64,000 nucleotides of DNA, taken from Tridacna crocea (Eukaryota > Mollusca > Bivalvia > Cardiida > Cardiidae). Under the pieces are notes generated by a model. That model ran no database searches, was not told the origin of the DNA, and saw only the letters and a program-made list of their open reading frames with translations. This document shows, in pieces, positions 1,374 to 62,572 of this stretch (within the stretch, counting starts at the first letter, position 1; each line of letters starts with the position of its first letter). The translations under genes and the position numbers were made by a program. The stretch covers positions 39,270,501 to 39,334,500 of the forward strand of contig OX031057.1 of the NCBI GenBank assembly GCA_943736015.1, written 5' to 3'.

Positions 1374-1603
1374 TTAACTGGTTACCACACAATCCCGATT
1401 TTTAACAACCCCTGTGGAAGAGGCCTTTTGAAAACATTAAGGGAAAAGGAGAAAATGCTGGTAACCAGCATTTTCTCCTTTTCCCTTAATGTTTTCTTAC
1501 CTATCAAAGATAAGTACCGTTAGCGGAGACACGTTTGAATTGTCATCTGCAAATGCTTTCAATTTGGACAAGTTTTCATTTTCATCGTGTGGTAAAGAGT
1601 TAA
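1374..1603 (-). mobile_element. MITE-A with compensated arms
   Basis: Complete, TTAA to TTAA. Both arms differ from consensus in step: TTAAGGG on the left and CCCTTAA on the right, so pairing is kept. Centre GGTAACC. Confidence 0.9.
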
Positions 1604-1828
1604 CTTGTTACCAAACGACAAAATTTTACACTGGTCCAAATTGAAAGCGTTTGCAGACGACAAAATGAATGTGACTAAAGAATTGAAATTTGTTTTAAAA
1701 AGGGAAGAAAACATTGTGGGAAAAGGAGAAATTGCTGGTTACCAGCATTTTCTCCTTTTCCCACAATGTTTTCAAAAGGCTTCTTTTCCAGGAGTGTTAA
1801 AAGGCAGGATTGTTTGGTAAAGGGTTAA
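1600..1828 (+). mobile_element. MITE-A
   Basis: Complete; shares its left TTAA with the opposite-facing copy before it. Perfect core with GGTTACC centre. Confidence 0.9.
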
Positions 1829-2050
1829 ACTGTTTACTGGACAACAAAATTTTAGACTGGTCCAGTTTGAAAGCATCTGCAAATAACAAACTGATGGCAG
1901 CTCACAATATGTAGTTCGTATTTGAGAGCTACACGTATTTGAGGACATGTTGGGAAAGGAAAAGGTGCTAGTCACCAGCACTCTTTCCTTTCCCCACAAT
2001 GATTTCCAAGGGTTTTTCAGCAATGGTCATGTAAGATCTGCAATCCCTAA
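1825..2050 (+). mobile_element. MITE-A, diverged
   Basis: Third member of the chain starting at 1374. Left end and GACTGGTCCAGTTTGAAAGC are clear; hairpin GCTAGTCACCAGC is diverged and the right end decayed. Confidence 0.7.
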
Positions 2051-2174
2051 CTCATCAGTAACTATTATATAACTAAAGTTTTCGTAGGGGCTATTCAACC
2101 AATCTCTGCAGCCTCTGTCTTTAAATGTGAGAGTTGGGGCCATAGACCTTAACCAAAGAATTCCATGGTAACCA

Positions 2175-2404
2175 TTAACTCTTTACCACACAATGACGAT
2201 TTTCAACGTTCATGCAAGAGATGGCTTTTGAAAACATTGTGGGGAAAAGGAGAAAATGCTGGTTACCAGCATTTTCTCCTTTTCCCACAATGTTTTCTAC
2301 CCTATCAAAGAAAACTCATTTCATACAAGCCACATTGAAACTGTCACCAGCAAATGTTTTTAATTCGGACAGGTCTAAAATCCTGTTGTTTGTTAAAGAG
2401 TTAA
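2175..2404 (-). mobile_element. MITE-A with flipped centre
   Basis: Complete and minus by its ends, yet the core centre is GGTTACC, the plus form. This is the clearest exception to the centre-base rule I found. Confidence 0.85.
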
Positions 2405-2525
2405 AAGCATCGTTGTGTCACTCAGGTCTTGTTAATGAATCAGCACATAACTGGTTCCATTCATGCAACGTCAGGCTTGGCAATCAGGAATTGATTTACT
2501 GTACTGAATCTTCGTTCCCCTTTCC

Positions 2526-2748
2526 TTAACCTTTTACCAGAAAACAAATTTTTAGTCTTGTCCAAATTGAAGGCATTTGCATTTGCACAATTTCATTCAA
2601 TGGAGTAATTTTTCTTTGATAGGGTAAAAAACATTGTGGGAAAAGAAGATAATGCTGGTTACCAACATTTTCTCATTTTCCCACTATATTTTCCAAAGGT
2701 TCCTTTCCCAGGGCTGTTTAATGTCGGCATGGTGTGTTACAAGGTTAA
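2526..2748 (+). mobile_element. MITE-A
   Basis: Ends TTAACCTTTTACCAG and ACAAGGTTAA; hairpin with GGTTACC and some unpaired changes. Confidence 0.8.
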
Positions 2749-2758
2749 TCACTTTTCT

Positions 2759-2944
2759 TTAACCCTGTACCAAACAAGAAAATCTTAGACTAGTCTGTAT
2801 TAAAAGTACATTTACATAAAAATGACAAACATATACAAATAATTGTCTCAAATGAAAGAATTAAATTTTGTGTCTGGAAAAAAAAAAGTGGATTTAAAGG
2901 AGAATGTCCTGTTTAACAGCATTTTCTCCTTTAACTAAGGTTAA
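2759..2944 (+). mobile_element. MITE-A, truncated
   Basis: Left end TTAACCCTGTACCAAAC, decayed hairpin; right end absent, abutting the next copy. Confidence 0.6.
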
Positions 2945-2950
2945 AGTATG

Positions 2951-3179
2951 TTAACCCTTTACCATACAATCCCAACTTTTAACGACCCTTAGAAAAGAGC
3001 CTACTTAAAAGATTGTGGGAAAAGAAGAAAATACTGGTAACCAGCATTTTCTCCTTTTCCCACAATGTTTTCTTCCCTTCCCGAAAGAAATTTTAAATTT
3101 TCAGTCGCTCTTACTTTGTCATCTGCAAATGCTTTTAATTTGGACCGGTCTAAAATTTTGTTGTGTGGTAAAGAGTTAA
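2951..3179 (-). mobile_element. MITE-A
   Basis: Complete. TTAACCCTTTACCATACAAT to GTGGTAAAGAGTTAA; centre GGTAACC. Confidence 0.9.
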
Positions 3180-3391
3180 AGTATCTTTTTTTGGTTGCAT
3201 ACAGAACTTTGTCACATAAACACTAAAAGTTTTCCCGAAAGAGGAAACACCAGTTATTTTATTGTCTCATAAAGATTTCTATTTGCCTACAGCAGCTGTT
3301 TTGTTCAAGTGTGATCTTCATAGAGGGGATTTCAACGATAAAACATGGATAAAATCTATTCAGCTAGATTTTGTCAGAAACTTTCTAGTGC

Positions 3392-3500
3392 TTAACCTGT
3401 AAATGGTCACCTTTGCAGACAGTGCAGATCCAAGATCAGACTGCACAAAATGTGCAGTCTGATCTTGGATCTACACTGTCTGTTTCTCTGCCATACATCC
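3392..3500. mobile_element. family-H palindrome (partial element)
   Basis: A near-perfect inverted repeat at about 3419-3480: GATCCAAGATCAGACTGCAC and its inverse around AAAATG. The TTAA ends are not both visible. Confidence 0.6.
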
Positions 3501-4095: not shown

Positions 4096-4138
4096 AGTAG
4101 TCCAGGCAAATTCATACCATTAAAAAGTATGGACATCA

Positions 4139-4194
4139 TTAACTCCTTAGCTAACAACAAGATTTTTGTACGTGACTAAATTGAAAGCAATTGC
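4139..4194 (+). mobile_element. MITE-A left end, interrupted
   Basis: TTAACTCCTTAGC..AAATTGAAAGCAATTGC, then a subfamily-B element begins abruptly; probably its insertion site. Confidence 0.5.
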
Positions 4195-4423
4195 TTAACC
4201 CTTTACTCCACAGATACTCATTTCTACGCATTGCTTGTAAGAGCCTTTGGAAAACATTGTGGCAAAATGTGAAATTGCTCGTGACGAGCAATTTCACCTT
4301 TTGTCACAATGTTTTCTACACTATCAAAAAGTGTCATATACACATAAGAAAAGGCTTCATCCTTGCTGTTTTTTAGGGTCAATTAGAGATACCATAGAAA
4401 TGCCTTATGGAGTAAAGGGTTAA
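4195..4423 (+). mobile_element. MITE-B
   Basis: TTAACCCTTTACTCCACAGA to GGAGTAAAGGGTTAA. Hairpin core AATTGCTCGTGACGAGCAATT, centre base G. Shares AACATTGTGG outer arm letters with subfamily A but has distinct flanks. Confidence 0.9.
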
Positions 4424-9479: not shown

Positions 9480-10060
9480 TTAATCTCAGATCAAATTTTC
9501 AAACTCAACGTAAATGTTCACAGTTCAGAGAAAAGTACATTTATATTTAGTATTATCAATAGGTGGTTGAAATGAATTTTACCATCTTGGATGGGGCCTT
9601 TCATGGGCCTCTCACTACCTGGTCAAATTTTATTTCGAATTACATATACATGTACCATGATTTATCTTACGATTGGCTTGTATATTTTTGTCTTTGCCAA
9701 TAAGAAGGCCAGATTTTGTTATTTTCAAAGATCATTTAATATATTTGATGAATATAAAGATTACAATTACAAATTTGAAAAATGAAAAAAGAAACCCCCT
9801 TATAATAAATACAGGAGTTAATGTTTTTCAACATTTTTTTTTTTAATTTATGTAATTGTTAATTTCAGGAAGGTTATCAGTGGGTGAAATTGATTATTCA
9901 TGAATATATTAATTATCAGTATGAAAGTTTTAGATGAATGAATTCAGTAAATCGCTGTTAGTGCAATAAAAACTTTATGTATTCAGATGATTATTAATTA
10001 TTCACATACATGTATCTACAAAATGGCATTTAAATGAGCAAGGCTCTGGCAAAGGGATCC
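9480..10060. other. stretch without a gene
   Basis: AT-rich, probably 3' flank of NPDC1. AATAAA near 9803; otherwise nothing recognised. Confidence 0.5.
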
Positions 10061-10290
10061 TTAACTCTTTCCAAAACAATTCCGACTTTTAACGAACCTG
10101 GATTAGAGGGGTTTTGAAAACATTGTTGGAAAAGGAGAAAATGCTGGTAACCAGCATTTTCTCCTTTTCCAACAATGTTTTCTACCCTGTCACATACAAA
10201 TTTCATCATTTAAGTCAACATTCAATTTGTCATCTGCAAAACCTTTTAATTTGGACAAGTCTTAAATTTTGTTGTTTGGTATAGAGTTAA
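10061..10290 (-). mobile_element. MITE-A with compensated arms
   Basis: Complete. Arms read TTGTTGGAAAAGG and CCTTTTCCAACAA: the G to T change is mirrored by C to A, keeping the stem perfect. Confidence 0.9.
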
Positions 10291-11084
10291 TGCATTTACA
10301 AGAAGCAGCAAACAAGTTATCATATTATTATTGATCCGTGAAATCCATTTCGTCTAACAATCAACTGAATCATGATGTAGCCTCATCCTTTGACAAGCAG
10401 AATGTTGACTAATAGCAAAAAATTGACCCGTGTAAACCTGTGCAGAATGTGCAGGCTGACTGGGTTCAATACTTTCTGCGGGGCACCATCCCTTATCACA
10501 GAGCATGGCTCAGAAACTTTATTTCATATTCTTTCACTGCTGACACGTAACCTTATCAAAGACAGATACTGCCCTGTTTTTGTTTGAAAAAAAAAGTCAG
10601 TTGAACACTGACAACTTGTTGTACCTTTAGGTTTTATCTGTAGGAGGTGACTGGGACCAAAACGGTGATTTAGGGTTGTGGCAAAATTCATTTATGTCTT
10701 TTTTTTTTTTGTATTAAATATTTATACATTGTGATTGTGTCACAGTGAGTTGTTATTATAATACAGACTAAATACTGCAATTGTTTTTAATGATTTATTA
10801 ATTTCCTTTTGTCTTTTCTGTCCAAACTAAGGAAAAGTTTTAATACTTCCTCATTGTTTCAGCCACTTTTATTGATGGTATATTGGTATGTTTATACGGT
10901 GTAATGATTAACAAAGCAGTCATGTACATTGTCCGTACATAACAGTGGATATACAAAGCCATTGGTGGAGCCATTGACATTCAAAAAATGTACCAATAAC
11001 AAAAGGTTTTCACCCAGGTCTGCCTACGTGGACTGCACCATACTTTAGCAGATGCATTAAACCATTTTTTCACAGAACAAGGCT
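10291..11084. other. stretch without a gene
   Basis: Contains a diverged relative of the GAGCATGGCTC repeat (10390-10520); the rest shows nothing I recognise. Confidence 0.5.
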
Positions 11085-27572: not shown

Positions 27573-27801
27573 TTAACCCTTTCCCAAACAAACCCTGGTT
27601 TTTACGGGTTTGGGATAGTAGGCTTTTGAAAACATTGTGGGAAAAGGAGAAAATGCTGGTAACCAGCATTTTCTCCTTTTCCCACAATGTTTTCTACCCT
27701 ATCATAGACCGAAATTATCTTTTCAGCAAGAGTTGAATGGTCGTCTGCAAATGCTTTCACTTTGGTCTAGTCCAAAAGTTTGTCGTTTGGGAAAGGGTTA
27801 A
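27573..27801 (-). mobile_element. MITE-D
   Basis: TTAACCCTTTCCCAAACA end, CCTGGTTTTTACGGG flank, A-type hairpin (GGTAACC), and GTTTGGGAAAGGGTTAA. Differs from A mainly at its ends. Confidence 0.9.
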
Positions 27802-28025
27802 ATCTTTACCAAAAGACAGAATTTTAGACTGGTCGAAATTGAGAGCATTTGCAGATGAAAAAATTGATGTGACACAAAAATCAAAATTTGACTATGGAAG
27901 AGATGAAAACTTTGTGGGAAAAGGAGAAAATGCTGGTTACCAGCATTTTCTCCTTTTCCCACAGTGTTTTCAGAAGGCTTCTCCCTCGGGGACGTTAAAA
28001 GACAAGATTGTTTGGTAAAAGGTCA
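27798..28025 (+). mobile_element. MITE-A
   Basis: Shares TTAA with the preceding D copy, opposite orientation. Complete; GGTTACC. Confidence 0.85.
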
Positions 28026-28352
28026 ACACTTGACTTTGGAACGTGAGCAACATTGCCAAGACACGCTGGTCTGCACATCTCTACCACTTTTCACCACACT
28101 TTTGTTCGTCCAACTGGCTAAATAATCATCATCAAATTTTTTATCAGCAAACAAGAAATTTTTCCAACACCTTTTTACTGTGCAACTATTTTTTTTTTTT
28201 CAAGCACCAAGCAACTCGTTCTCTGGTGTTCTCATCCTTAACATGCAGTACCTCCCTGACAGATTGTTTTTTGTATACTAGATTATGTAAACTGCGCTGC
28301 ATAGACCCAAGAAAACCTTGTGTAACTTTATTAAATTGTCCAGTGATTTCCT

Positions 28353-30907: not shown

Positions 30908-31347
30908 TTTCATGCTTACCGGTAGGATATTGAGAAATAGCAGTGAAAATATTTTTCGATCTTACACTGGTACAACCAGTGAAAATACCGATTTTCACGT
31001 TCTTGTTGCCTAGGTAAATTGCGCGTGCCTAACAACTGGATGGGAAATATGACGTCATATACCTTACATTTCTCGCGCTTGACGTAACATTGCTATGTGG
31101 GAGGGGTACGCCACGGGGAGTACGGGAAAAAAACTGTACTGAATTTTGACAAAGCTCCTTCCAGAAAGGGTTAAAAGCATAAGATAAATAGAATATTTGT
31201 TTTTTTCGGTGAAAGATCGAAATTTATTTCATCTCGTGAACACCATCAGTAATATTTTCACTTGTGGCTGCGCCACTCGTGAAAATATTACCGATGGTGT
31301 CCACTCGATGAAATAAATTTCGATCTTTCACCGAAAAAAACAAATAT
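30908..31347. mobile_element. 440-bp element with a 3' hairpin of about 66-bp arms
   Basis: GGATATTGAGAAATAGC at left, AAACAAATATCC at right. The 3' third (31193-31347) folds: GGTGAAAGATCGAAATTTAT pairs with its inverse around GGCTGCGCCAC. Second copy at 56869-57305. Confidence 0.8.
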
Positions 31348-33361: not shown

Positions 33362-33432
33362 AGTTGTTAGGTATTGTATTTTGACCAGGACGCAGCCATG
33401 CATGAAGGAGTGGTTTCCCATAACACTCCCTC

Positions 33433-33661
33433 TTAACTCTTTACCAAACAACAAAATTTTAGACTGGTCCAAATTGAAAGCATTTGCAGACGACAAAATA
33501 AAAGTGACTGGAAATTTGAAATTTCTTTTAGGAAGGCAAGAAAACATTGTGGGAAAAGGAGAAAATGCTGGTTACCAGCATTTTCTCCTTTTCCCACAAT
33601 GTTTTCAGAAGGCTTCTTTCTCGGGGTCATTAAAAGTAGGGATTGTGTTTTAAAGAGTTAA
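33433..33661 (+). mobile_element. MITE-A
   Basis: Complete; perfect core. First of a head-to-tail pair sharing TTAA at 33658-33661. Confidence 0.9.
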
Positions 33662-33887
33662 CCCATTACCAAATGACAATATTGTAGACTGGTCCAAATT
33701 GAAAGCATTTGCAGACGACAAAACTAAAGTGACTGAAAATTTGAAATTTGTGTAGTGAAGGGTAGAAAACATTGTGGGGAAAGGACAAAAATGCTGGTTA
33801 CCAGCATTTTCTCCTTTTCCCACAATGTTTTCTAAAGGCTTCTTTCTCAGGGGCTTCAAAAGTAGGGATTGTGTGGTAATGGGTTAA
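33658..33887 (+). mobile_element. MITE-A
   Basis: Complete; second of the head-to-tail pair; ends GGTAATGGGTTAA. Confidence 0.9.
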
Positions 33888-34688: not shown

Positions 34689-35452
34689 TTAAAGGTGGGT
34701 ATTCAGAATTTTCACATCACACCAAATTAAAAAATATATATGTCACTGAAATTTATATGAAAAAATAATACAAATCATCAATTATTAAGAATCATAAAAT
34801 TACAAAAAAAATTTTTTTGGTGATATTCCCTTAACCCATTACCACACGAGAAAAATTTAGACTGGTTCAAATTGAAAGCATTTGCAGACGACAAAATAAA
34901 GGTGACTGAAAAGTTGAAATTTGTTCTGGAAAGGATAGAAAACACTGTGGGAAAAGGAGAAAATGCTGGTTACCAGCATTTTCTCCTTTTCCTACAGTGT
35001 TTTCAGAAGGCTTCTTTCTCAGGGGCGTCAAAAGTAGGGATTGTGTGGTAATGGGTTAAAAGGTTACCTAGCCTCTTAAGCTATTTTTAGATTTCCTTCC
35101 AAAATCAAAAAAGCATTGTGGGAATGTTAAGTGACTTGCACGTGACTTATGACTATTAAATTCCATAACATAACAAACATTTAATTATTTTCCATAATGT
35201 CTAGAACTTCGGATGCTATATTTGAAGCTTCATCTGTATATTTCCAGTATGTAAATGAGCGAGTTGCTCATGTAAAAATAGATCGTGTTTCCCTTCATTG
35301 TCGACCTGGGCTGTAGTAAATCTCTAATCTATCTAATTGTCGGATGGTTTTCGACTACTGGGGTTTAATGAATGAAAATTATAAGGCTTTGGGAGTACAA
35401 GGATGATTTTTTTTGTAAAATTTTGTCCCAAAATCTGAAGGGCCACCTTTAA
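34689..35452. mobile_element. TTAA-flanked element nested in a MITE-A
   Basis: Begins TTAAAGGTGGGTATTCAG and ends CTGAAGGGCCACCTTTAA: imperfect inverted ends around TTAA. It contains the MITE-A at 34831-35059. No coding frame. Confidence 0.7.
34831..35059 (+). mobile_element. MITE-A (innermost of three levels)
   Basis: Complete; outer arms ACACTGTGGG and CCTACAGTGT show a mirrored T/C, A/G change. Confidence 0.9.
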
Positions 35453-35728
35453 AAAGAGTAGAAAACATTGTAGGAAAAGGAGAAAGCGCTGGTGCCAGCA
35501 TTTTCTCCTTTTCCTACCATGTTTTCTAAAGGCTTTTTTCTATGCGTCGTTAAAAGTTGGGATTGTGTGGTAAAGCGTTAAGGAAATTTGATTCTGTGTG
35601 TAGACTTATTTCATATCAAAAGTTTTCCTAGTAATAAAAAGTTATTTAGTCTGTATAACAAAAGTTTATCTAGAAATGAAAAGGTTTTTTGCTATGAAGG
35701 CTTGTTTTACAACAATGGAATTCATGAA

Positions 35729-35957
35729 TTAAACCTTTCCCAAACAACAAATTTTGGACTCTTCCAAACCAAAAGAGTTTGCAGATGGCAATTTTAGATT
35801 TGGAGAAAATGGCAGAAAGTTCTCAAAAAGGGTAGAAAACACTGTGGGAAAAGGAGAAATTGCTCGTTATGAGCAATTTCTCCTTTTTCCCACAGTGTTT
35901 TCAAAAGACTTTTACTACAGACACATAAAAACCAGGGCTTGTTTGGGAAAGGGTTAA
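35729..35957 (+). mobile_element. MITE-C
   Basis: TTAAACCTTTCCCAAACAAC to TTTGGGAAAGGGTTAA. Core AAATTGCTCGTTATGAGCAATT; outer arms ACACTGTGGG/CCCACAGTGT. Confidence 0.9.
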
Positions 35958-36271: not shown

Positions 36272-36413
36272 GTAATACATCTAATTTCAGTTGGAATTTG
36301 TAATGCTTTGATAATTATTAACAGGGCAACAGCATACATAAAACTATTTACTTTGCCTATCTATTTTCGTAACAGACACATCTTTGGTATTTGTGAAGAT
36401 ATTAGTCAAAAAG

Positions 36414-37164
36414 ATGAGTTGGTCGCACATGTTTGATGATAGTGGTGTGTTTAGCGGGTTTGGAGAGGCAGGAGGTTATAGTGGTGCCAATAAAAGACCA
36501 GCCTATGAACAAGGTGGTAACCAGGTATTTAAGAAGCCAAGAGGAGGAGCAGTCGGAGGGGACAGATTTGGGTCCCATCAAAGTGCAGAAAGTGAGGCTG
36601 AATGGAATTCTGGTGGTTGGTCCGAGGAGAACTATGAAGGGCCAACATCTTGGGATGATATGGGGTCATATGGTGGCACTGGGGCTGGAAGTGGAGGAAA
36701 TGACCCATTTTCTAGCCTGTCTGAAATTACATCTTGGGACCAGATCGCAAGTGGAGGGAAAAAAAGAGGCGGGGCTAATGCAAGGGGCGGGAGGCAAAGA
36801 GGGCAAGGATCTACATCCAGGGGTGGTTACGGTGGGAATTCATCAAGGGGAGCATTTGGAGGTGATAGCATGCAGCTTGGAGCTGATGATGATGATTGGG
36901 GGTTTGATGATGATTATGGCAATGATGATTATGGCAATGATGATTATGGCTCAGGAGGTGGGGGGAACTATAGAAGTGGTAGCAGGGGATCAGGTAGAGG
37001 GGGTCAAAGTGGTAATAAATCTGGTGGTAGGTTTGGTGGGAATAAGGGTGGTGGTAGTGGGGGATGGGGTGGCGGTGGTGGGGGGAGAGGTGGTAGGGGG
37101 AAAAGTGGTGGTGCTGGTGGTGGGCGTGGAGCCTTCAACAGAAGAGGAGGTGGGGGTGGTGCAG
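36414..37164 (+). CDS. NKRF: NKRF-like exon 1 (RGG-rich N-terminus)
   Basis: It begins MSWSHMFDDSGVFSGFGEAG. An in-frame TTG lies upstream, but the ATG at 36414 is the first Met. An acceptor TTCGTAACAG ends at 36375, so this exon probably begins in 5' UTR at 36376 after a non-coding exon. NDDYG is repeated in tandem at residues 169-179 in an acidic patch, followed by RGG/GGG-rich sequence to residue 250. The donor GTACGA starts at 37165 and leaves one base of a Gly codon. The RNA-like strand is very G-rich. Confidence 0.85.
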
Positions 37165-40100: not shown

Positions 40101-43100
40101 TTTTTCTAACAATGATTTCAAAAACCTTCTTACTTTAACTCTTCACAAAACAATAAAATCATTGACTTTCAATTCAAGGAATTTGTAGGCTACAAATTTA
40201 ATTAGACTAAAATAATGTGATTCTGATTCTTCTATTAACCCTTTCCCAAACGACAAATTTTGGACTCTTCCAGACCAAAAGAGTTTGCAGACGACAATTC
40301 TAGATTTGGAAGAAATGGCAGAAAGTTCTCAAAAAAGGGTAGGAAACACTGTGGGAAAAGGAGAAATTGCTTGTTACGAGCAATTTCTCCTTTTCCCACC
40401 GCATTTTCAAAACATCTTTACTGCAGACACGTAAAAACCAGGGCTTGTTTGGGAAAGGGTTAAAGTTTACAAAACATGGATGTAAAAAGGAGGATATGCT
40501 CACAACCAGTAATTAAACCTTGGGTAAAATTTTACTCCGTGCCATACTAGAAATTTCAAACTTTCTTACATGGAAAGCATTTATAGATAACAACTTGGGA
40601 CTCAATGGTGGGAGTTGTGTTTGTCAGGTTAGAAAACAAATGGCATACAACATGCGAAAAGTGGCATTAGGACATATGCATAAACTTTTGTCTCGGATCA
40701 GCCTGCGCAGGCTAATCCACAATGGTTCTTTACAACTACATTAGATTTTGTACTAAAATAGACTTGCATTTACCACAAGCCCTTGATTTCTAAAGAGCCA
40801 GACATTAAAGATTTTTGAAAACAGAGTGGAAAAAGACGAAATTTTACCAGCATTTCCTCCTTTATTTCACAATGTTTATCTATTCTGTTAATGAAAAATC
40901 ACATAAATTGAGCCTTAACTCATTACCAAAGGACAAAGTTTTAGGTTTGTTCAAATCAAAAGTGTTTGTAGACAACAAAATTAAAGTGGTTGAAAATTTG
41001 AATTTTGTTTTGTGAAAGGTAGAAAACAGTGTGGGAAGGAGAGAAAATGCTGCTTACCAGCATTTTCTCCTGTTCCCACAATGTTTTCTGTTTTCTTTTG
41101 CAGGGTGGTCAGAAGTAGGGATTGTGTGGTTATGGGATATTGTATTTATTATTTTGCTTTCAGCAAATGCTTACATTCAGAACAAGGATATATTTTTATA
41201 GTTCAGTAAGAGGTTAAAACATTGTGAGCCAAAGAAAAGCTTGTTTTTTTCTTTTTCCTTAACAGTTCAAACTGTACACATCTTTTCTGAAGAATGACAA
41301 ATTTCAAAGACAAAACTCCATACAGTCATTGGAAAATGCATGCATGTGTACCAATTTGAACTTGAGAGTAAACTACGAGTGTGTAGAAATGCCTCGCATT
41401 TACAACAGGTATGCTTTCTACTGTTTTACTATTGTGTATAGGTGATGTGTCAGGTGTCACAAATTCTTAGTTCAACATAGTCAGATTTAAAAAATTTGTA
41501 CATTGAAATTATTTGCAGACAATTACTTGTATAACTTATCTCTTTATCAAGCTAGAAATTCTAGACTCTTCCAAATTGGAAGTACAAGCAGACGACAAAT
41601 TTTGAATTGATGAAAATGAGTAAAGATTTCTGATGTGGGCAGAAAAGATACTTGGATACTTTGTTACAAGTAATCTCTCCTTTTACAGTAGTGCTTTTTA
41701 ACCCTTTCCCAAACAATCCCTGGTTTTTACGGGTCTGGAATTGTAGCCTTTTGAAAACATTGTGGGAAAAGGAGAAAATGCTGGTAACCAGTTTTCTCAT
41801 CCTCGGATACCCCGGGGTCTCCCTATTTGGTATGCTACATGGACCCCTGGGACAACTGACTAATAAAACTTTGAATCAGCCGCCGAAAATTGATACGAAA
41901 CGTCATAGCGTACAGTCCACTCGCCCATCACAAAATGATGATGGAACCAATGAAAAGCCAGCATTCGGCCAGCGGTAAAGCGATGGAAATTCAATTAATT
42001 GTCCCAGGGGTCGATGTAGCGTAGCAAATAGGGAGACCCCGGGGTATCCGAGGATGAGTTTTCTAGCCTATCATAGACAGAAATCATCTTTTTAGCAAGA
42101 GTTGAATTGTTGTCTGCAAATGCTTTCAATTTGGACAAGCCTAAATATTGTCGTTTGGGAAAGGGTTAAAGCCTTCTTCTTCAGGGTTGTTAACACATTG
42201 TTAAAGTGTGTGTTGTGTGTGTGTGTGTGGTGGGGGGGGGGGAATCTGATAGGGTAAGAGACATTTAAAGAAGTTTCTGTGTGTTACCATTCTTTCCTGT
42301 CTGACCGTATTCAAAACCTCTCATCCTCAGGGTTGCATTATATTGTATGAAACGGGGATAAAGGGTCTCCTGTCAAATGCCAGAATTAGAAATGGACAAC
42401 TTAACCCTTTACCCCATATGGCATTTCTATGACATCTCTGATTGATCCTAAATGACAGCAAGGATGAAGCCGTTTCTTATGTGTAAATGACACCTTTTGA
42501 TAGCATTGAAAACATTGTGACAAAAGGTGAAATTGCTCGTCACGAGCAATTTCACCTTTTGCAACAATGTTTTCCAAAGGCTCCTACAAGCAATGTGTAG
42601 AAATGAGTATCTATGGAGTAAAGGGTTAAGTAAATCATCGCTGTCCATCTGTCACCCAGTTCTTAACGCTTTACCACATAATTTCTAATAACTCTGAAGA
42701 GGAAGGCTTTTGAAAACATTGTGGAAATTGGAGATAACATGGTAACCAGCATTTTCTTTGTTAACTGCAAAGTGTTACACTCTTTCTGCTACAAATCCCA
42801 TCATTTGTATATTTATTTTGTTGTCTGCAAATGCTGTCAAATTCAAATTCAGTGTGTTAGATGTATAAAATTTTGTCAATTGGAAAAGAGTTAATGGTAA
42901 ATACAATTTGCTTTAGAAAGATTTTGAAAACTTTGTCATATTAGCTCTTTTCCAAATGACAGAATTTTGGAATGGTCCAAATTGAAAGCATTTGCAGACG
43001 AAAAAATCAATTTAAATCAAAAACTGAAATTTGATTTGGGAAGGGTCGGAAAAAAGGGGAAAATGCTGGTTACCAACAGTTTTTCTCCTTTTCCCACAAT

Positions 43101-46100
43101 GTTTCTCAAAAAGCTTCTTTTGTTAGCGTCGTAAAAAGTTGTGATAGTGTGGCAAAAGGTTAAATGGACTGTTTGCTCACAGCAAATTATCTCAGATGTG
43201 ATGCATAGAATTGTTTCGTCTGCCTGTCAAGCATTATCTTCTAAGTACAAGATCATTAAGCATTGTAAGAAAAACAGAAAGTGTTGTTTGCTAGTACTTT
43301 TCCCAAATGATTTATTTTGCCCTTGATCAATCAATTCTACATGAGCCGTGCTCTTTGAAAAGGGGGCTTAATGCATTTGCGAAAAGTGTCGACCAATTTG
43401 GACTAGTCTGAACTTTTGTTGCTTGGTAAAGAGTTGGAACACTTTTGTGACAGAAATGTCCCTTTCATGACTTAAAATTTTCACTGAAAATCAATTTTAT
43501 TTCTAAAAACAACTGCAGCCAAGAATTGGGACCCGCATTCAGTATTTTTTTTTTTTTTTCAGGCAAGTTTTTACTGGGAAACTGAGCATCAGTGGAATAT
43601 TTCTAATAAGATCTGTTGGATGTAACAAGAAGGAGTTAAAACATGAGGTGTTTAACAAAGGTTATGACTTGCTGATGAATTCCTCCCTGGACGACATTAA
43701 CAGCTTGAAGGATCCTGGTACAGACATGGTCAGGTATATATAACTTCTTTATGTTCCTTTTCACCCTTTACCATGCAGTCCCAAGTTCTAATCACCCTAG
43801 AGAAGAAGAACCCTTTACCAAACGACAAAATTTTAGACTTGCCTAAATTGAAAGCATTTGCAGATGACAAAATAAACGTGATGCAAAAATTGAAACTTGA
43901 CTTTAGAAGGATAGAAAACATTGTGGGAAAAGGAAAAAATGCTGGTTACCAGCATTTTCTCCTTTTCCCACATTGTTTTCAAAGGCTTTCTTTCCTAGGG
44001 TCGTTAAAAGTAGAGATTGTGTGGTAAACGGTTAAAAGCATTTGAGAAAAGAAGAAAATGCAGGCTACCAGCACTCTCTGCTATCACAAATTTGTCTAAG
44101 CTTCCAAAATCAAATTTCAACTTTTGAGTCATATTTATTTTGTAAGTCTGTAAATACTTTCTACTTTGAGAAGTTTAAAACCTGGTTATCAGTAAAAGTG
44201 TTAATCGTTTATCAAACAACAAAATTTTGGACAAAGGTTATGATGGAATGAACTATCTGCATTATTACAGAGCAAGTATAGAAAAGTATCTACAAAGTAC
44301 AGGCAAGCCAGCGTACTATGAGGGTCTGGGAACACCTGTCTACAAACCCATGCCAGAAATAATCGCCTCAATTACTAAAAACCTTGAAACAGTGACTGTC
44401 CTCTGTACTGGTCTTAGAAAGCTAACAGCTTATCTAAAAGTGAGTATTTTCTGTCTATATTTCAGTCTGTATGTCTGCCTTGAATTTCGTCTTTCTTCCT
44501 CTTTTACCCATTTCTCCCTCAATAGTGTTTGTATTGTGTTTAATACCAATTTCACTGCTTTCCTGTAGTTTTGTTTACTGTTACTTCACACAGCATCGTA
44601 CCCAAGGCACTGGCTACTTTCCCATGTAACCATTGCTGTAGGAATAATCAGCTGTGAAAGAATAATTAATTAAAAGACTAATCAATGACTACCATCAGAC
44701 TTCAGGAAGAAAATTGTCCAGTTTGGGTTTAAAACCAGTTACCCTCTGGTTTCAAAGCATGTAGGCTACTTACCGTGCCACGAGGCTCAGTACCCACATA
44801 TATTTTAACTCATTACCACATGACAAAATTTTAGACTGGTTCAAATTGAAAGCATTTGTAGACCACAAAATAAAGGTGACTGAAAAATTGAAATTTGTTC
44901 TGGGAAGGGTAGAAAACACTGTGGGAAAAGGAGAAAATGCTGGTTACCAGCATTTTCTCCTTTTCCTACAGTGTTTTCAAAAGGGTTCTTTCTCAGGGGC
45001 GTCAAAAGTAGGGATTGTGTGGTAATGGGTTAAAATATGGGTCACATTTTATTTTTCATCTGTAAATACTTTAATTCTTTACCAAATAACCAAATTTCAG
45101 ACTTGACCAAGTTGAAAGCATTTGTAGATGACAAATGAAGTGCAAATTATGATTTTGCACTTAATGGGATTGAAAACATTGTATTAGAAGGAAAAAATGC
45201 TGGTGACAAAAAATGCTGGTCACCAGCATTTTCTCCCTTTCCCACAATGCTTTCAAAAGGCTACTTCCCTAGGGTCATTAAAACTCTGGATTGTGTGGTG
45301 AAGAGTTAAAAGTTTAGAGATCTAAATTTCTGTTGTGTGGTAAAGGATTAATCTTTTTTTTTTTTCAAAAGAAAGACAGGAATTTTGACAAGTCGAATTT
45401 GAAAGCATATACGGATGACCAAAAAATATGACTCAGAAATTTGGTTTTGGGAAGGTAGAAAACGTTGTGGGAAGAGGAGAAAATGCTGGTTCCCAGCATT
45501 TTTTTCTTTTCCCACAATGTTTCTGAAAGCTGTCTTTCTCCGGGTTGTTATAAGTCTGTGTTGTGTGGTCAGGGATTAAGCTTAGGATCATAATGATTCT
45601 ACACTCAACTTCTAATCTGAATTACAGCATAGGTTCACACATTTCCCTTTTCAGATTCTTTGGATTCTTATCTGCATTAAGTGCCCTAGTATACTCTCTA
45701 CCTAACAACAAAGTCTTTGACTTTTGCAGACAACAAGAAATAGAAACTTCTCTTTTGGATAGCAGAAAACATTTTTGTGGGTGAAAAGGGAAAAAGATGC
45801 TGGTTGCCAGCATTTTATCTTTTTCTCCACAAGGCTTTGAAAAGGATTTTCCTTTTAGGTTGCTAAGAGTTAACCCATTACCACACAATCCCTACTTTTG
45901 ACGCCCCTGAGAAAGAAGCCTTTAGAAAACATTGTTGGAAAAGGAGAAAATGCTGGTAACAGCATTTTCTCCTTTTCCCACAATGTTTTCTACCCTTCAC
46001 AAAACAAATTTCAAATTTTCAATCATTTTTATTTTGTTGTCTGCAAATGCTTTCGATTTGGACAAACCTAAAATATTGTTGTTTGGTAATGAGTTAAAGG

Positions 46101-49100
46101 GTTAATGTAGGCTGACGTTTTTACTCAGTTGATTTCTTGCATACAAGCTTGACTGCTTGATAACTAGGAGGATTTAACTCTTAGGCTGCTAAGCATGACT
46201 CCCTCACCTTTTTCAGACTGTGTAGATCAAGATCAAACTGTACAGAACATGCAGTGTGGTCTTGGATCTATACTGTCCAGTACAGTGAGTTTTCTTTGAT
46301 TTTCTTTATATTTTTCCTTGCAAAAGTTTTAATCGTAAGCAATGTTGTCTCACCACTGGCTGTAAACCTTAGTTTACTTAGCAGCTTTTAGGGTTAATGC
46401 ATGTTTAGATGCAGGTGTGCCATCTTTTATATTTGAATGTCAATATGGGAAAAGATGGTTTAATTTAGTTTCAAAATGTGTTTCATACAAAGCAAGTCAC
46501 AGTTCAATGTTGAGAAATATTTTTCTATTGAACAGCTTCATCATGAGGTAGAAAGGCACTTTTGCATGCAGACATTTCACTTAAAGCAAAAAATTTTGAC
46601 CATTGTCAGCTTGCATGGACTCTGCAGGCAGGTCTTGTCTATACTTTTTGAAAATGTATTAAACCATCTTTTCACAGAGGATGACTTATTTATATTAAAC
46701 AGGGTCCTGTGCAGCTTCCGGACAATCCAATCTCCATGTTGGAGCAAGCCATGATAGCGTCCAAGTGTGGTTTACAGCACATGTTCCAGATTGACTCTAG
46801 CACCAACGATGGCGTACCATCATTTGAAGGACGTTTTATTTTAGGTAGGGTTTTGAATTAAGCATTTCATTATATGGCTTGCAACACACGAAAAGGGACA
46901 TTCGGACATTTGCGTAAAATGTCGTCTCGGATCAGCCTGCGCAGTTAGCGCAGGCTGATCCGAAATGGCACTTTACGACTACATTGGAGTTTGTGCTACA
47001 GTAGACTTGTGCAAAATAGAACATTACTTAAAAATGGAGAGTGTCATTTCGGATTAGCCTGCAGGGACTGCGTAGCCTGATCCAAGACGACACTGTACGC
47101 AAAAAGTCAGAAAGTCCCTTTTCATGTGTTGCATGCCATATAAACCTTAACCCATTACCACACAATCCCTATTTTTGACCACCCTAAGGAAGGAGCCTTT
47201 GGAAAACATTGTGGGAAAAGGAGAAAATGCTGGTAACCAGCATTTTCTCCTTTTCCCACAATGTTTTCTTCTCTTCACAAAACATATTTCAAATTTTCAG
47301 TCACTTTTATTTTGACATCTGCAAATACTTTTGATTTGGACAAAGCTAAAATATTGTGATGTGGTAATGGGTTAAAGAAGCAATTTTAACAATTTTACCT
47401 TAGATCACTCCCTTTCTTCCATGAGGTTGTGAAAACACCACATGATTGTTTGGCAAAGTCTTAAATTTTATTGTTTGTTAAAGAATTCAATAGAAATCAT
47501 TGTAGCCACATGTTAGGTGTCACAAATGCCTTTGGTATGGTTTTTTGTAATGAGTAACTGTTTACAACACCATCCATAGTTTTCAAGATCCTAAAGAAGG
47601 AATTGTTTGAAAACATCGTGAAAAAGGGAGAAAATCCTTCATCCATTTCTAACACTTTTCTTCCTTTTGAAAGACAAGCAATATCGTTTTCAGATTTTTC
47701 GATAGTCCTTTTTTAATGCCCTCAAGAGCAACAAGTCTAGAATCTTGTCATGTGGTAAACGGCTAAACATAATGCCAGTGTCTCTCTTGGCTCAGTGGTC
47801 AAGGTCATGGATTTGATACTCAGAAGTTCTAGATTAGATACCACTGGCAATGCTGGATGAGTTGGAGTGTCTAATAGCAAGGCACTGCAGAACTGCAGCC
47901 TTGCCCATGTAATATCCACGTAATATATGAAAAAGTGAGGTTGTTTTCTTACAGCATATTTAAAAGTCTTGCTCAAAAGATACACAAACTTTAAATCATT
48001 TAAAAAAAAAGAAAAAAAACACCTTTGAATCATTTATGAAAGGTTTAAACTCCGTCTATGAATTGCAAGAGTTATGTCAGAAAAAGAAATCAAATGGATG
48101 TTTTATTGATTCATGGGAAAAATACGCCTTTTCCCCCAAGCATGTCATGATTGTGCACAATACTTGCAAAACAATCTCCATGAACACAAGGATAGGTGCC
48201 TTGGATGTGATATGACTGAAATGATGCAGAAAGTGGGATAATAAGCAGTATTATAATTGTGAAAACTGCATCAGACAGTAAAATAAGTAGACACAGTCTT
48301 TTTTGTTGAAACATTTACTTTAAAAGTTGTGGGTCCCTATTTGCCATTCTTAAGAAAATTCTTGGTGTGAATTTAAATTCAGAAAGTTATCCAACTTATG
48401 GATATTTATTCACCAACTATTTCAACAACCATTCTTACGAAAGTTCACAGTCTTATTCTTCAAGATTTTCTAAATATGAGGTAACACAACTACATATTGG
48501 TTAAACCATTTGCCAATCAGAAGCTGTGTTACTTTCCAATTTGAAGCAGCATATTCGAAGGTCTTGTTCAAACATAAGTTGAACCATTTGCCAATCAAAA
48601 GTTGTGTTACTTTCGAATTTAGGAAAGCCCTGAGAATAAGACTAAGAACATTCCTAAGAATGCTTGGTGAGCACAGACCCTGATTGGCTACACCATTTTG
48701 TTTAGCTAAACAGGACTTGCATAATTTTCAAATATTGACTTTTATTAGAACAAGAGGAGCTGGGCCTGTATTCACCAACCATTCTTGAGAATATTCTTAG
48801 TCTTATTCTCCAAGGTTTCTAAATTTGTAAGTAACACAACTTCTGATTGGCTAAACCATTTGGTTTAGCCAATCAGAAGTTGTATTACTTACAAATGTAG
48901 AAAATTCTGGAGAATAAGATGACAAACGTTCTTAAGATTTGTTGGTGAATACAGGCCCAGGAATATGGGCCAAGGAATAGGGGCCCAGGAATGTTCTTGA
49001 GAATTGTTGATTAATATGGGCCATGTACTGATACAAAAGTTACGACAGCTAGGTAACAATTTATCTCATTGCATATTGCAGAGGACACTCCCATTGCTAG

Positions 49101-52100
49101 AGCTTCTGATCCAAACAAGAAACTGTGCAAGCAGGAAACCTATTCCCTTGCTCTGAAAGCACTTCTAAACAAGTCTGTCAGTGATTTAGTAATTCCTGTG
49201 GAAAAAGAGGGTGAGGAGAAAGCAAACCCAGAGGATGAACATCTTGAAAATGAAGCTATTGTGGCGGGCATAAATATACCAGATACGGTAGGATATTTTG
49301 TTTTTCTGTTCTCTCAAATCTTATGTGATTATCAAATAATCCCTAGTTGTGATGACCATTAGGAAAAGGTCTTTTGAAAACATTGTGGTAACCAGGTAAC
49401 CAGGCATTTTTTTCTTTTCCCACAATGATTCTGACCCTAGCAAAGCAATTTTATAGAGAAGTCTGATCATTCTAGCTGTATCTAATATGTAAAAGTCTAC
49501 AAATGCTTTGAATTTGAATTTGCCTTGAACAGGCCTAAAAGTTTGCTTCATGGTACAGAGCTTATTTGCTTAGGGAAATAAAATATAAGGCTTGTCTGTT
49601 TATTAGTTGAAGATGTCAAATTAAACATGCCGTGAATAATGAGATTGGTGTTTGAAATTGTGGAAAATAGTGTGGGAAGAGGAGAGAAGCATGTGCCTGA
49701 AGACACTCCCATGAAAAAACCAGGGCCCGTATTCACCAACCGTTCTTAAGAACATTCTTGGTCTTATTCTTCAAAGTTTGCCGATTTGAAAGTAACAGAA
49801 CTTCTGATTGGCTAAACCAAATGGTTTAGCCAATCAGAAGTTCTGTTACTTTCACAGTCAGTCAATCTTGAAGAATAAGACAAAGAATATTCTTAAGAAT
49901 GGTTGGTGAATACGGACCCAGTGCTTTGAATGAAATTGAACCAAGAGTCCCAATGTATGAATCCTACACCTTCACCTCTGACCAAGCAGTGCCCTTTTAC
50001 TGGGTTAAAGGCCCAGTAAAGGCTAAAATATCAAAGCAGATATCAAAATACATTAGATTTAAATCATAGCATTTAAAAGTACGAAAAATATTGTGGAGGT
50101 GACAATCTGTTACCCTGTGATCAGTCCATAGGTTGGTGTCAGGCAAAAAATAAACTAGAGACACAGCTACTTAACAGGTTTTAGCCTAGTTTTGAAATTA
50201 ATTTCTCAACGACTAACACTTGGAACAACTATACAATAACAGATTGTCATCTTCACAATAATTTCCATACCTTTAAATGGTATGATACAAATTCAGATGC
50301 ATTCAAACAACCTTTTTTTTTGTTTACATTTGGTTATGATACAAATTCAGATGCATTCAAACAACCTTTTTTTGTTTACATTTGGTTATGATACAAATTC
50401 AAATGCATTCAAACAACATTTTTTTTTGTTTTTTTGTTTTTTGTTTACATTTGGTTATGATACAAATTCAAATGCATTCAAACAACCTTTATTTGTTTAC
50501 ATTTGGTTACGATACAAGTTAAAATGCATTCAAACAACCTTTTTTTTTGGTTTACATTTGGTTATGATACAAATTCAGATGCATTCAAACAACCTTTTTT
50601 TGTTTACATGTGGTTATGATACAAATTCAGATGCATTCAAACAACCTTTTTTTGTTTACATTTGGGTTTTTTTTGTTACTTTATGCATTTATCAAACAGT
50701 CTTGAGATTTAACAACCTCCCAGAAGAAGGCTTCTGAAAATGTTGTGGAAAAAGGAGAAAAGACTTGTAACCAACACCTTGTCTTTTTCCTGCATTTTTT
50801 TCTATGTTTTCAAATACATTTTTGAGTAAATTTCATGTTGCCATGAACAAATGCTTTCAGTTTGGATCAGTGAATAATTTTGCCATATGGTAAAGAGTCA
50901 GATGTATAGACTTGTTATTTTATGTTCGCCATAGGATGCCCCAGCCCCTGTGCCCAAAGCGTCTCTGAACAATGCACCAGTTTTGGAAAAATTCAGGAAC
51001 TTGGTGACCTCGCTGACAGCAACAGCATATTCTGAGAACAACACTGTGGCAGTTGAAAATTGTATTTTAAACAGTGGATTGACCGTCACATGTGTTTATA
51101 AACGTGTCAAGCCAACATCAGACACCTGCTCATCTTGTGACATTTTCATTGAAGATGTGCATATTAGCTCAGGTAAAATCATTTCTAACCATTTCCCAAA
51201 CAAGCCCTGGTTTTTACATGTCTGCAGTAAAAGTCTATTGAAAACACTGTGGGAAAACGAGAAATTGCTCGTAACGAGCAATTTCTCCTTTTCCCACAGT
51301 GTTTTCTACCCTTTTTGAGAACTTTCTGCCATTTTCTTCAAATCTAAAATTGTCATCTGCAAACTCTTTCAGTTTTGAAGAGTCCAAAATTTGTCGTTTG
51401 GGAAAGGATTAATTTACATAGAAAGATGGTCTCTTACAGTGGGCTTGCCACTGTGATGTATCTGAAATAACTTGGAAACCCAGTCAATATCTTAACTCAT
51501 CGCCAAGCGACATAATTTTTAGGTTTGTCCAAATTGAAAGCATTTGCAGACCACAAAATAAAACTAAATGAAAGTTTGAAAATTGTTTTGTGAAGGGTAG
51601 AAAACATTGTGGGAAAAGGAGAAAATGCTGGTTACCATATGAATTATTTTGGACATAAGGTGCCTGTATTTAACCCACTTTATGCAGAAGTTAAACGCAA
51701 GGCTTGAAAAGAGCTAGTATCGACTCCATGTACTGAAAGGCCGAGTAGGAGCCAAATTGAATGATATGGTTGTTAACCCTTTACTCCACAGATACTCATT
51801 TCTACGCATTGCTTGTTGGAGCATTTGGAAAACATTGTAGCAAAAGGTGAAATTGCTCGTGACGAGCAATTTCACCTTTTGCCACAACGTTTTCTATGCT
51901 ATCAAAAGGTGTCATATACACATAAGAAACAGCTTCATCCTTGCTGTTATTTAGGGTCAATTAGAGATAGCATAGAAATGCCTTATGGGGTAAAGGGTTA
52001 AAATGTATTTGTAATTTAATTCATTCCACTTAAAAGTTGGGAATTAATTGCAGTGATGACAATCTGTTACTCTAATGTCAAAAGTAGGGATTTTGTGGTA

Positions 52101-59406: not shown

Positions 59407-59507
59407 AAAATTGAGACTTGAAAGTAATGGCTCTTTCTAACCATGCCTAGAAAAGAAAGTTTGTATTTCAATCCCATATCATACAGCAAAATTCTTAACT
59501 TGTCAAA

Positions 59508-59731
59508 TTAACCCTTTACTCTATAGATACTCATTTCTGCACATTGCTTGTAGGAGCCTGTGGAAAACATTATGGCAAAAGGTGAAATTGCTCGTGACGA
59601 GCAATTTCACCTTTTGCCACAATGTTTTCTACACTATGATGTCATATACACATAAGAAACGGCTTGATCCTTGATGTTATTTAGGGTCAATTAGAGATAC
59701 CGTAGAAATGCCTTATGGGGTAAAGTGTTAA
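59508..59731 (+). mobile_element. MITE-B
   Basis: About 100 bp after the NKRF-like stop codon, so possibly in the 3' UTR. Centre GTGAC; end GGTAAAGTGTTAA. Confidence 0.9.
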
Positions 59732-60215: not shown

Positions 60216-60282
60216 AAAGGAAATATGGTAAAGTTTTGAACTGCAGAGGGAGCCTTTCTTTTTATATATAAAAGTTTCAGTG

Positions 60283-60511
60283 TTAACTCTTTACCACACA
60301 ACAAAATTTTGGACTTGTCCAAATTGAAAGCATTTGCAGACGACAAAATAAATGTGAATCAAAAATTGAAAATTGATTTGGAAAGGGTAGAAAACATTGT
60401 GGGAAAAGGAGAAAATGCTGGTTACCAGCATTTTCTCTTTTTCCCACAATGTTTTCAAAGGCTTTCTTTCTCAGGGTCGTTAAAAGTCGGGATTGTGTGG
60501 TAATGGGTTAA
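60283..60511 (+). mobile_element. MITE-A
   Basis: Complete; GGTTACC; ends GGTAATGGGTTAA. Confidence 0.9.
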
Positions 60512-60591
60512 TCCAAGTTATTGTCACTTGATGGTAGTATAGTTTTATGGAAAAAGAAATGATTTTAAATATCTTTGTAAATATCACATTA

Positions 60592-60737
60592 ACTCTTTAC
60601 CAAACGATATATATCCAGTGGGCTAGAAAACATTGTGAGAAAAGGAAAAAATGCTGGTTACCAGCATTTTCTCCTTTTTTCACAATGTTTTCAAAGGCTT
60701 CTATCTCAGAGTCGTAAAAACCAGGGATTGTTTAACT
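60592..60737 (+). mobile_element. MITE-A, shortened left flank
   Basis: TTAACTCTTTACCAAACG then GTGGGCTAGAAAACATTG; right part GTCGTAAAAACCAGGG merges with the tandem unit. Confidence 0.75.
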
Positions 60738-61140
60738 AAAAAATTGAAATTTATTTCCAGGTGGGCAGAAAACATTGTTGGAAAAGGAGAAAATGCTGGT
60801 TACCAATATTTTCTCCTTTTCTCACAATGTTTTCAAAAGGCTTCTATCTCAGGGCCGTATACACCAGGGATTGTTTGTTAAAGGGTTAAAAATTGTGTCG
60901 TAAGCTTGATGTTTTTAAACATCCACTTCAGTGGATTGTTTAACTAAAAAATAGAAATTTATTTCCAGGTGGGCAGAAAACATTGTGAGAAAACGAGAAA
61001 ATGCTAGTTACCAGCATTTTCTCCTTTCCTCACAGTGTTTTCAAAAGGCTTCTATCTCGGGGCTGTTAAAACCAGGGATTGTTTGGTAAAGGGTTAAAAA
61101 TTGTGTCGTAAGCTTGATGTTTCCAAACATCCACTTCAGT
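60725..61140. repeat. 208-bp tandem duplication containing a MITE
   Basis: Two units (60725-60932, 60933-61140), each GGATTGTTTAACTAAAAAAT, a MITE-A hairpin, GTTAAAAATTGTGTCGTAAG and AAACATCCACTTCAGT. Differences between units are scattered, so the event is not recent. Confidence 0.85.
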
Positions 61141-61317
61141 ATTATAGTAAATGGTTATTTTAGAATCATGCACTCCATCAACTTTTTACAGTGACGCCTT
61201 TTCTTTTTTGTTCCTTCATCAAACGTTTTCTTTCTGTGCATCATAATAATCCTTGAAATATTGGAGTGCAATCTTGTTTGATGAGTGAAATTGTATACCA
61301 AAAAAAAAAAAAGTTTC

Positions 61318-61544
61318 TTAACTCTTTACCAAATGACAAAATTTTGGACCAGACTAAATTGAAAGCATTTGCAGATGACAAAATAAGCATGACTGAAAAA
61401 TTGTAGTTTGGTTCGGGAAGGGTAAAAAACAATGTTGGAAAAGGAGAAAATGCTGGTTACCAATTTTCTCCTTTTCCTACAAAGTTTTCAAAGGCTTCTT
61501 TCTAATAGGGTCTTTAAAAGTCCAGAACGTGTAGAAAGAGTTAA
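61318..61544 (+). mobile_element. MITE-A
   Basis: TTAACTCTTTACCAAATG start; core shortened (GGTTACCAATTTTC); end GTAGAAAGAGTTAA. Confidence 0.85.
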
Positions 61545-61714
61545 GGCAGCATTACCAACACTTCATATCAATAGAGCCAAGGGGATCAGTTTTAGGCCCT
61601 GTTGTTGGACTTGGAACCTAGACCTGCAGATTAGTTTCCTGTTGGAAATTCTTGCCTTTTTAATGTCCCAGGAAAAGATGGTGTGGAACTGTATCATAGG
61701 AAACACGGTCTATA
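61545..61714. other. short unassigned stretch
   Basis: Part of a 128-codon plus-strand frame (61432-61818) that runs through a MITE and a dispersed repeat; not considered a gene. Confidence 0.4.
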
Positions 61715-61985
61715 CGCCCCAAGGGTCATATCATTTTATGGCTCCAGTCGCCTGTCTGTCCAACGGTCTGTCTGGTGGCATTTCCTTGAATATGCAACTC
61801 CTCATACAGTTTTTATAGGAACAAGCCCAAACTTACTACGATGAATGTCGGTGATCATCTCTGCATGTTACTCTTAAAATTTGGATCTCGTGAGGTGTTC
61901 TCGATTTTCAAACATCTTACTGGCACAAGACCCTTCGGTAGTACATGCACCGCTCTGCGAAGCTCTTGTTATGAATGAGTGCACA
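61715..61985 (+). repeat. dispersed repeat fragment
   Basis: TATACGCCCCAAGGGTCATA, GTCTGTCCAACGGTCTGTC and CTCCTCATACAGTTTTTATAG resemble the GTATACTGG/CTGTCC class of repeats; no open frame of interest. Confidence 0.45.
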
Positions 61986-62054
61986 AGAAAATATAAATAA
62001 GTGAAATAAAAAAAAAAGTAGTAACTGAAGCACTGGTTGATATGCTATTTTTGG

Positions 62055-62205
62055 AAAATTCTGTACCATATGACAAATTTGTAGACTTGAATGGAATGTC
62101 GGTAAAATAATGAGATATGTTCCTGTTAGATTTATAGAAAAACATTATGGGAAAACAAAAAAATGCTGGTGACAAGCATTTTCTCCTTTTTCTAAGCCAG
62201 AAGGT
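62055..62205 (+). mobile_element. MITE-A, diverged
   Basis: CTGTACCATATGACAAAT start, hairpin GCTGGTGACAAGC; right end displaced. Confidence 0.55.
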
Positions 62206-62343
62206 TTGTATTGTGTTATGACCACAGTCATTAGAAGTTCACACAAACTGTTTCCCTGACATGCCCCTTTGGGTGTATAAGAACTGCTTTGTGAAGCTTG
62301 TACTCCAAAATGTTTTCATAAGCTGTTTTCAAACTCTGGGTCA

Positions 62344-62572
62344 TTAACCCCTTACCAAATGACAAAATTTTAGACTGGTGCAAATTGAAAGCATTTGCAG
62401 ACGACAAAAAAAATGTGGCTCAAAAATTGAAATTTGTGTTGGGAAGGGTAGAAAATATTGTGGGGAAAGGAGACAATGCTGGTTACCAGCATTGTCTCCT
62501 TTTCCCACAATGTTTTCAGAAGGCTTCTTTCTCAGGGTCACTAAAAGTTGCGATTGTGTGGTAAAGGGTTAA
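62344..62572 (+). mobile_element. MITE-A
   Basis: Complete; core changed symmetrically to GAGACAATGC and GCATTGTCTC; ends GGTAAAGGGTTAA. Confidence 0.9.

Follow-up and report, generated by a model that had tools for sequence, protein, structure and literature searches.

Why should the two arms of a palindrome change together? The question is raised by a stretch of 64,000 nucleotides of the bivalve Tridacna crocea (assembly GCA_943736015.1, contig OX031057.1, forward strand, positions 39,270,501 to 39,334,500), hereafter the window, within which coordinates are counted from the first letter. It carries many copies of a repeat element of about 230 bp with a central palindrome of 67 bp, consisting of two 33-bp arms and a single unpaired centre base. 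A reading of the letters alone had noted that a departure of one arm from the consensus is often mirrored in its partner, and had proposed arm-to-arm copying through a hairpin intermediate or selection for a folded RNA as the cause. Our analysis reveals that these symmetric changes exist and exceed chance, but form a minority, so that their frequency had been overstated. They are mainly inherited within subfamilies, and the interest lies in why spreading lineages keep matched arms. In the following, pairs are numbered 1 to 33 from the palindrome centre outward, and R and L denote the right and left arm.

Matched arm changes exceed chance

A profile built from 20 seed copies was applied to the window and to remote stretches of the genome. 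At a looser cut-off the window yielded 134 matches, 98 of them with at least 120 aligned positions and 82 with arms. These 82 copies contain 47 matched arm changes, 18 changes that are doubled but unmatched, and 354 one-sided changes; 16 of the matched changes occur in four copies of family B and eight in three copies of type C. The statement that such mirroring is frequent therefore does not hold. Nevertheless, permutation gave only 12.8 matched changes, and permutation of the right arms within divergence bins 27.7, with none of 2000 shuffles as high as the observed 47 in either case. The binned shuffle can return a copy's own arm and is thus a conservative test. For 51 window copies selected for a one-base centre (47 distinct rows; one copy has an inserted base), 36 cells were changed on both sides compared to 6.5 after shuffling (0 of 500 shuffles as high), and sliding the partner by 1–3 columns left 5–16 such cells. 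Independent drift alone is rejected by these counts, as the sequence-only reading had maintained.

After removal of the four B and three C copies, 23 matched changes remained. Permutation gave 10.3, with no shuffle in 2000 reaching the observed count, and binned permutation gave 17.3, with 196 of 2000 reaching it. The 61 least diverged copies outside B and C showed 14 matched changes versus 4.7 permuted and 8.6 binned (71 of 2000). A shift control on 75 window copies outside B and C, in which any double deviation was counted, gave a weak peak of 40 at zero shift and 19–38 at other shifts. The sequence-only reading had staked its case on paired changes being more frequent than shared subfamily ancestry would produce. 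At the level of single copies this is largely not so, but an excess beyond chance persists. The symmetric changes that it named are all present in the sequence, although several of the coordinates given for them are element starts and not arm positions.

In the wider sample of 459 copies, 330 pass a limit of 8 gapped pairs; with a stricter limit of 5 and no fewer than 90 flank positions, 281 are left. These 281 copies, taken from the window and 30 stretches and including 257 A copies, were used for all tree-based comparisons. Six matched variants stand out among them: pair 3 G:C>C:G (19 copies, 2.0 expected), pair 8 A:T>T:A (24, 3.0 expected), pair 13 A:T>T:A (11, 1.0 expected), pair 20 G:C>C:G (12, 1.0 expected), pair 26 T:A>C:G (27, 6.3 expected) and pair 28 C:G>T:A (8, 2.5 expected). 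Five of the six occur in blocks, with pairs 3, 8, 13 and 20 changed in B, pairs 3, 8 and 26 in C, and pair 26 in a group of A copies. Among the five matched variants that rank highest in inherited carriers, four are strand swaps (G:C>C:G, A:T>T:A); of the one-sided changes, 278 of 1124 are of this kind.

Matched changes are inherited and one-sided changes rarely so

Trees were constructed from flank columns only. Inherited carriers were defined as carriers minus parsimony origins and compared with shuffled labels; half of the flank columns served for building the tree and the other half was tested, with flank variants limited to at most 45 carriers. Matched arm variants were inherited in 68 of 150 carriers (2.2 by chance; 39–44% net over both half-trees) and flank variants in 576 of 2871 (78 by chance; 17% net), whereas one-sided arm variants were inherited in only 21 of 1124 carriers (13.8 by chance; 0.6% net). 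None of 70 non-complementary double changes was inherited on either half-tree. The reciprocal tree gave 521 of 2699 inherited flank carriers, 19 of 1124 one-sided and 61 of 150 matched, and on a tree from the full flanks one-sided changes reached 27 of 1124 (12.3 by chance; 1.3% net).

Net inheritance of flank, one-sided and matched variants amounted to 13.8, 0.9 and 40.9% over eight random splits, and the order was kept for A copies alone (7.0, 0.7 and 17.4%). When variants were matched for frequency, the corresponding values were 19.5, 1.5 and 64.8% for 13–30 carriers and 3.5, 1.0 and 53.0% for 6–12 carriers. One-sided arm sites had 0.11 net inherited carriers per position, pairs about 1.8–2.0 and flank columns 13–14. 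Unmatched arm changes arise freely, at 6.1% per site and copy, and seldom reach descendant copies. Since one-sided changes are almost never inherited and matched changes are, the spreading lineages appear to transmit matched arms, and the copies then decay in an unmatched manner. Matched changes are for the most part handed down within subfamilies, not introduced by repair in the individual copy. How matched, one-sided and flank variants differ in inheritance provides a quantitative test of a role for an internal hairpin, and counting such patterns in a single assembly could tell selection apart from arm copying.

Arm-to-arm copying, the first cause proposed from the letters, is not supported as the main process acting on inserted copies, although some copying is possible. 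With the six variants at pairs 3, 8, 13, 20, 26 and 28 set aside, 49 matched changes were counted versus 36.9–40.4 binned and 25.9 unbinned, and 70 unmatched doubles versus 66.6–69.3 expected. A tandem duplication at 60725..61140 (+ strand, unit 208 bp) comprises two copies of the element that differ at 8 of the 67 positions in the palindrome and at 9 of the 141 positions outside it, and none of the eight palindrome differences is mirrored. Among the matches listed in a search for repeated outer flanks, many were on one side only. Arm repair after insertion was therefore rejected as the main cause. The second proposed cause fared better in part: the inheritance test argues that spreading lineages are selected to stay symmetric or folded, whether as RNA or as DNA.

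Selection or copying as the origin of symmetry

We consider it moderately probable that the symmetric or folded palindrome is selected for in source elements, that matched arms are inherited, and that copies decay after insertion. A copy would serve well as a source only while its palindrome is intact, and a source mutated on one arm would drop out unless the mirror change followed. The rare lineages regaining symmetry may then have founded subfamilies, namely B, C, the pair-26 group and the TTAA group, while inserted copies would decay freely on either arm. The palindrome most likely has a DNA-level function in mobilisation, as a dyad site for a transposase or host factor or as an extruded hairpin. 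As single-stranded DNA it folds at −37.2 kcal/mol (z −16.6).

Several observations weigh against this explanation. For variants with 2–5 carriers, net inheritance of flank, one-sided and matched changes was 0.6, 0.2 and 2.6%, so that flank and one-sided variants barely separate. The one-sided change 22R, present in the copies starting at 34829 and 44803, may be an inherited one-sided change; in the sample it has 29 carriers and 25 origins versus 27.9 by chance. The source-level rate of matched changes is about 13–14% of the flank rate per position, whereas two independent hits would by our rough reckoning give about 5%. Moreover, the large matched variants come from few lineages (B, C, pair 26) and thus reflect few independent source-level events, by our estimate perhaps 3–6. 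Pair 28 is matched in eight copies with eight separate origins and is therefore recurrent, not shared by descent. Between 72 close sister pairs we found 22 matched changes in either phase and 15 in true phase versus 10.2 expected, with 0 of 3000 shuffles as high, and this twofold excess need not follow from selection alone; 32 pairs of intermediate distance gave 13 versus 18.3, and 35 distant pairs 43 versus 27.0. In the tandem duplication, the difference L21 faces an R21 change common to both duplicates, so that the event at this pair either disrupted an existing match or completed a new one. Finally, the variant of the copy at 1373 alters two adjacent pairs (23 and 24) together. Exact palindromes with this change (TTAAGGG/CCCTTAA) were counted genome-wide with one centre base only and every other position exact: 77 carry it on both arms, 37 on the left arm only, and 34,027 have the consensus. 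If right-only palindromes were as frequent as left-only ones, independent changes would yield about 0.04 with both. By itself, the altered 27-base arm has 758 occurrences. The 77 palindromes indicate that the change is not private to this copy, which speaks for the main explanation. Among the matches listed, no perfect palindrome lies in the interval C1:2674918-3502496 (about 0.83 Mb), while they are frequent on either side; this is either a real gap or missing searched sequence.

Copying between arms within the source lineage, by intrastrand template switching or quasipalindrome correction, is unlikely as the principal explanation but remains the strongest competitor. It would equalise the arms at or before amplification without any selection for a hairpin, and it accounts for the near-lack of inherited one-sided changes, the sister-pair excess, the repeated origin of the matched change at pair 28 and the joint change of two neighbouring pairs seen in the 77 exact copies. 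Template switching is also a documented class of mutation, according to the accessible part of PMC8794818. Given the sister-pair excess and the pair 28 recurrence, some copying in source lineages is possible. However, copying without selection predicts that matched substitutions accumulate per pair about as fast as changes per position in the flanks, since each pair has two inputs of which half resolve to the variant, and the observed pair rate is far below that of the flank columns, which favours selection and still allows for some copying. Template switching would further be expected to shift the limit of the palindrome, but its outer limit is identical, as judged by eye, in the A, B and C consensus sequences. 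The prevalence of strand swaps among the top matched variants, five linked cases only, and the lack of mirrored changes in the tandem duplication also argue against it.

A related proposal, which we regard as doubtful, is that the palindrome folds during amplification itself and one arm is rewritten from its partner, each new copy thus departing with a perfect hairpin. If true, a TTAA-type element would be proofread on its own hairpin as it spreads, and this would help to explain why about a million copies exist.

Selection for a folded RNA, according to which the palindrome is transcribed and the stem of a small-RNA precursor or other structured RNA must stay paired, is improbable, and an RNA role of the palindrome is less likely than one in DNA. 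When the element consensus is folded as RNA, the palindrome gives a single continuous stem (z −9.7), and matched changes are compatible with such a stem. Inherited one-sided changes, sorted by the mismatch they leave, comprised 12 G-T wobbles on the + strand (5.8 by chance), 6 A-C mismatches (4.2 by chance) and 7 others (3.0 by chance). Changes leaving a wobble are not clearly favoured in inheritance, and the main matched variants are, with one exception among five, swaps and not transitions via G-U. An Rfam scan of the window at gathering scores gave no match, and a tRNA search of the window found none. Shared ancestry and chance only, with subfamilies that happen to hold double changes and copy ages doing the rest, is very improbable, for although the binned excess in the window is not significant without B and C, it leaves unexplained why the inherited arm changes are matched and not one-sided while flank variants are inherited.

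Structure, class and abundance of the element

The element starts with TTAACYCTTTACCA and ends with TGGTAAAGRGTTAA and thus has terminal inverted repeats, as miniature inverted-repeat transposable elements (MITEs) do. It also resembles MITEs in being shorter than about 500 bp, homogeneous and abundant, with more than 180 model positions spanned by 304 of 460 matches. Judged from its length, it would be without coding capacity. TTAA is exact at the left end in 210 of 274 and at the right end in 215 of 253 sampled copies. Gaps of fewer than 8 bases separate neighbouring copies in 20 of 247 cases, compared to about 1.3 expected, and TTAA is present in all 12 junctions printed between abutting copies. 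In the window, copies abut at TTAA in 1373-1828, 27573-28026, 33431-33887 and 37250-37705.

Kolobok elements use TTAA as well as piggyBac elements. The TTAA is followed by CCCT in the B consensus, the C consensus and at the right end of A, while the majority at the left end of A is CTCT. For piggyBac-type elements the motif after TTAA is stated as CC[C/T]T (PMC2872659, in part). The element is probably a piggyBac-like MITE of the TTAA type. The same genome contains 118 matches to PF13843 (DDE_Tnp_1_7), many of them free of inner stops, and we take this domain to be linked to piggyBac. Several of these matches are identical in score and frame length, which suggests recent copies. A TTAACYCTTTACC end on a transposase gene, if it exists, would name the partner of the MITE.

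Divergence from the consensus amounts to 8.6% in the arms and 21.8% in the flanks. Families A and B have the terminal TTAACCCTTTACC and the palindrome in common and, by eye and without scoring, show little other similarity. The internal module is thus more conserved than the rest, as described for the coral MITEs (CMITEs). These are likewise short, non-coding, TTAA-ended elements tied to piggyBac, in which otherwise differing families share an internal region (PMC2872659, in part). In contrast to the present element, CMITEs measure about 100 bp, and the words palindrome and hairpin do not appear in the main text of that paper as far as it was accessible; here the internal module is a perfect palindrome whose arm changes were tested. 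Why MITEs reach huge numbers, and whether their internal parts matter, are questions raised there for the coral elements.

Template switching has been proposed to create and maintain RNA hairpins, with matched changes, including multi-base ones, on both sides of the stem as seen here (PMC8794818, in part). Those events were inferred from the evolution of RNA genes, microRNA and rRNA genes among them, whereas in the clam element one-sided changes persist and matching is seen at the level of the spreading lineage. Foldback elements such as Tm1 are also transposable and able to fold back (PMC3169594, in part), but the element described here is set apart by its central 67-bp palindrome with an unpaired centre base and its short terminal repeats. 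It is not described in the 12 of 19 passages on MITEs and piggyBac considered from a paper on bivalve genomes (PMC10294476), and in the accessible parts of the literature searched neither this element nor matched changes in a MITE hairpin turned up.

The window contains 118 copies, which make up 34% of its bases. In 26 remote stretches of 10 kb we found 267 copies covering 19% of the bases, and all 26 stretches contain copies (1 to 27 each). Extrapolated from these stretches to the genome of 1.05 Gb (31 contigs), about 1.08 million copies are expected. A search for the exact palindrome in viral and prokaryote contigs found none. This single family thus makes up around one fifth of the genome as sampled, and its estimated million copies amount to a mutation screen in which variants with an intact palindrome appear to spread.

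Copies in the window

The palindrome is identical to the consensus in the copies at 27573..27803 (− strand, palindrome 27628-27694) and 33431..33662 (+ strand, palindrome 33540-33606). Matched changes are present in several others. The copy at 1373..1604 (− strand, palindrome 1430-1496) is altered on both arms at the adjacent pairs 23 and 24 (CATTAAGGG/CCCTTAATG) and is a member of the genome-wide group mentioned above; it adjoins the copy at 1599..1828 (+ strand) at TTAA. Pair 22 is matched as G:C>T:A in the copy at 10060..10293 (− strand, palindrome 10116-10182) and as G:C>A:T in the copy at 35422..35582 (+ strand), which has four one-sided changes in addition. The copies at 34829..35059 (+ strand, palindrome 34938-35004) and 44803..45033 (+ strand, palindrome 44912-44978) have the same arms, with pair 26 T:A>C:G matched and 22R one-sided. 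At 62343..62572 (+ strand, palindrome 62451-62517), pair 10 A:T>C:G is matched and two changes are one-sided.

All four B copies found have pairs 3, 8, 13 and 20 changed, as the sequence-only reading had indicated for this family, but the 11-mers it quoted are exact on both arms only in the copy starting at 59468. These copies are located at 4138..4318 (+ strand, palindrome 4250-4316, the four pairs matched), 42400..42630 (+ strand, palindrome 42508-42574), 51772..52003 (− strand, palindrome 51828-51894) and 59468..59631 (+ strand, palindrome 59563-59629); the limits of the first and the last derive from the match to the A profile. C-type copies were found at 35728..35957 (+ strand; pairs 3, 8 and 26 matched), 40233..40463 (+ strand; pairs 8 and 26 matched, pair 3 changed on both sides in a non-complementary manner) and 51186..51413 (− strand, palindrome 51240-51306).

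Other reading frames and palindromes

A frame of 298 stop-free codons at 36342-37238 is glycine-rich and is perhaps a host exon; a Pfam scan of 192 residues of this frame gave no match, nor did a scan of four open reading frame pieces from the window. Long palindromes unrelated to the main element lie at 3416-3482, 31210-31330, 46913-46977, 48816-48903 and 49787-49854, several of them with look-alikes in other stretches. A second palindromic repeat family (L019:6282-6354 and L014:89-161) likewise displays a matched C:G/T:A difference between its copies, GAATCGTCTC/GAGACGATTC versus GAATTGTCTC/GAGACAATTC.

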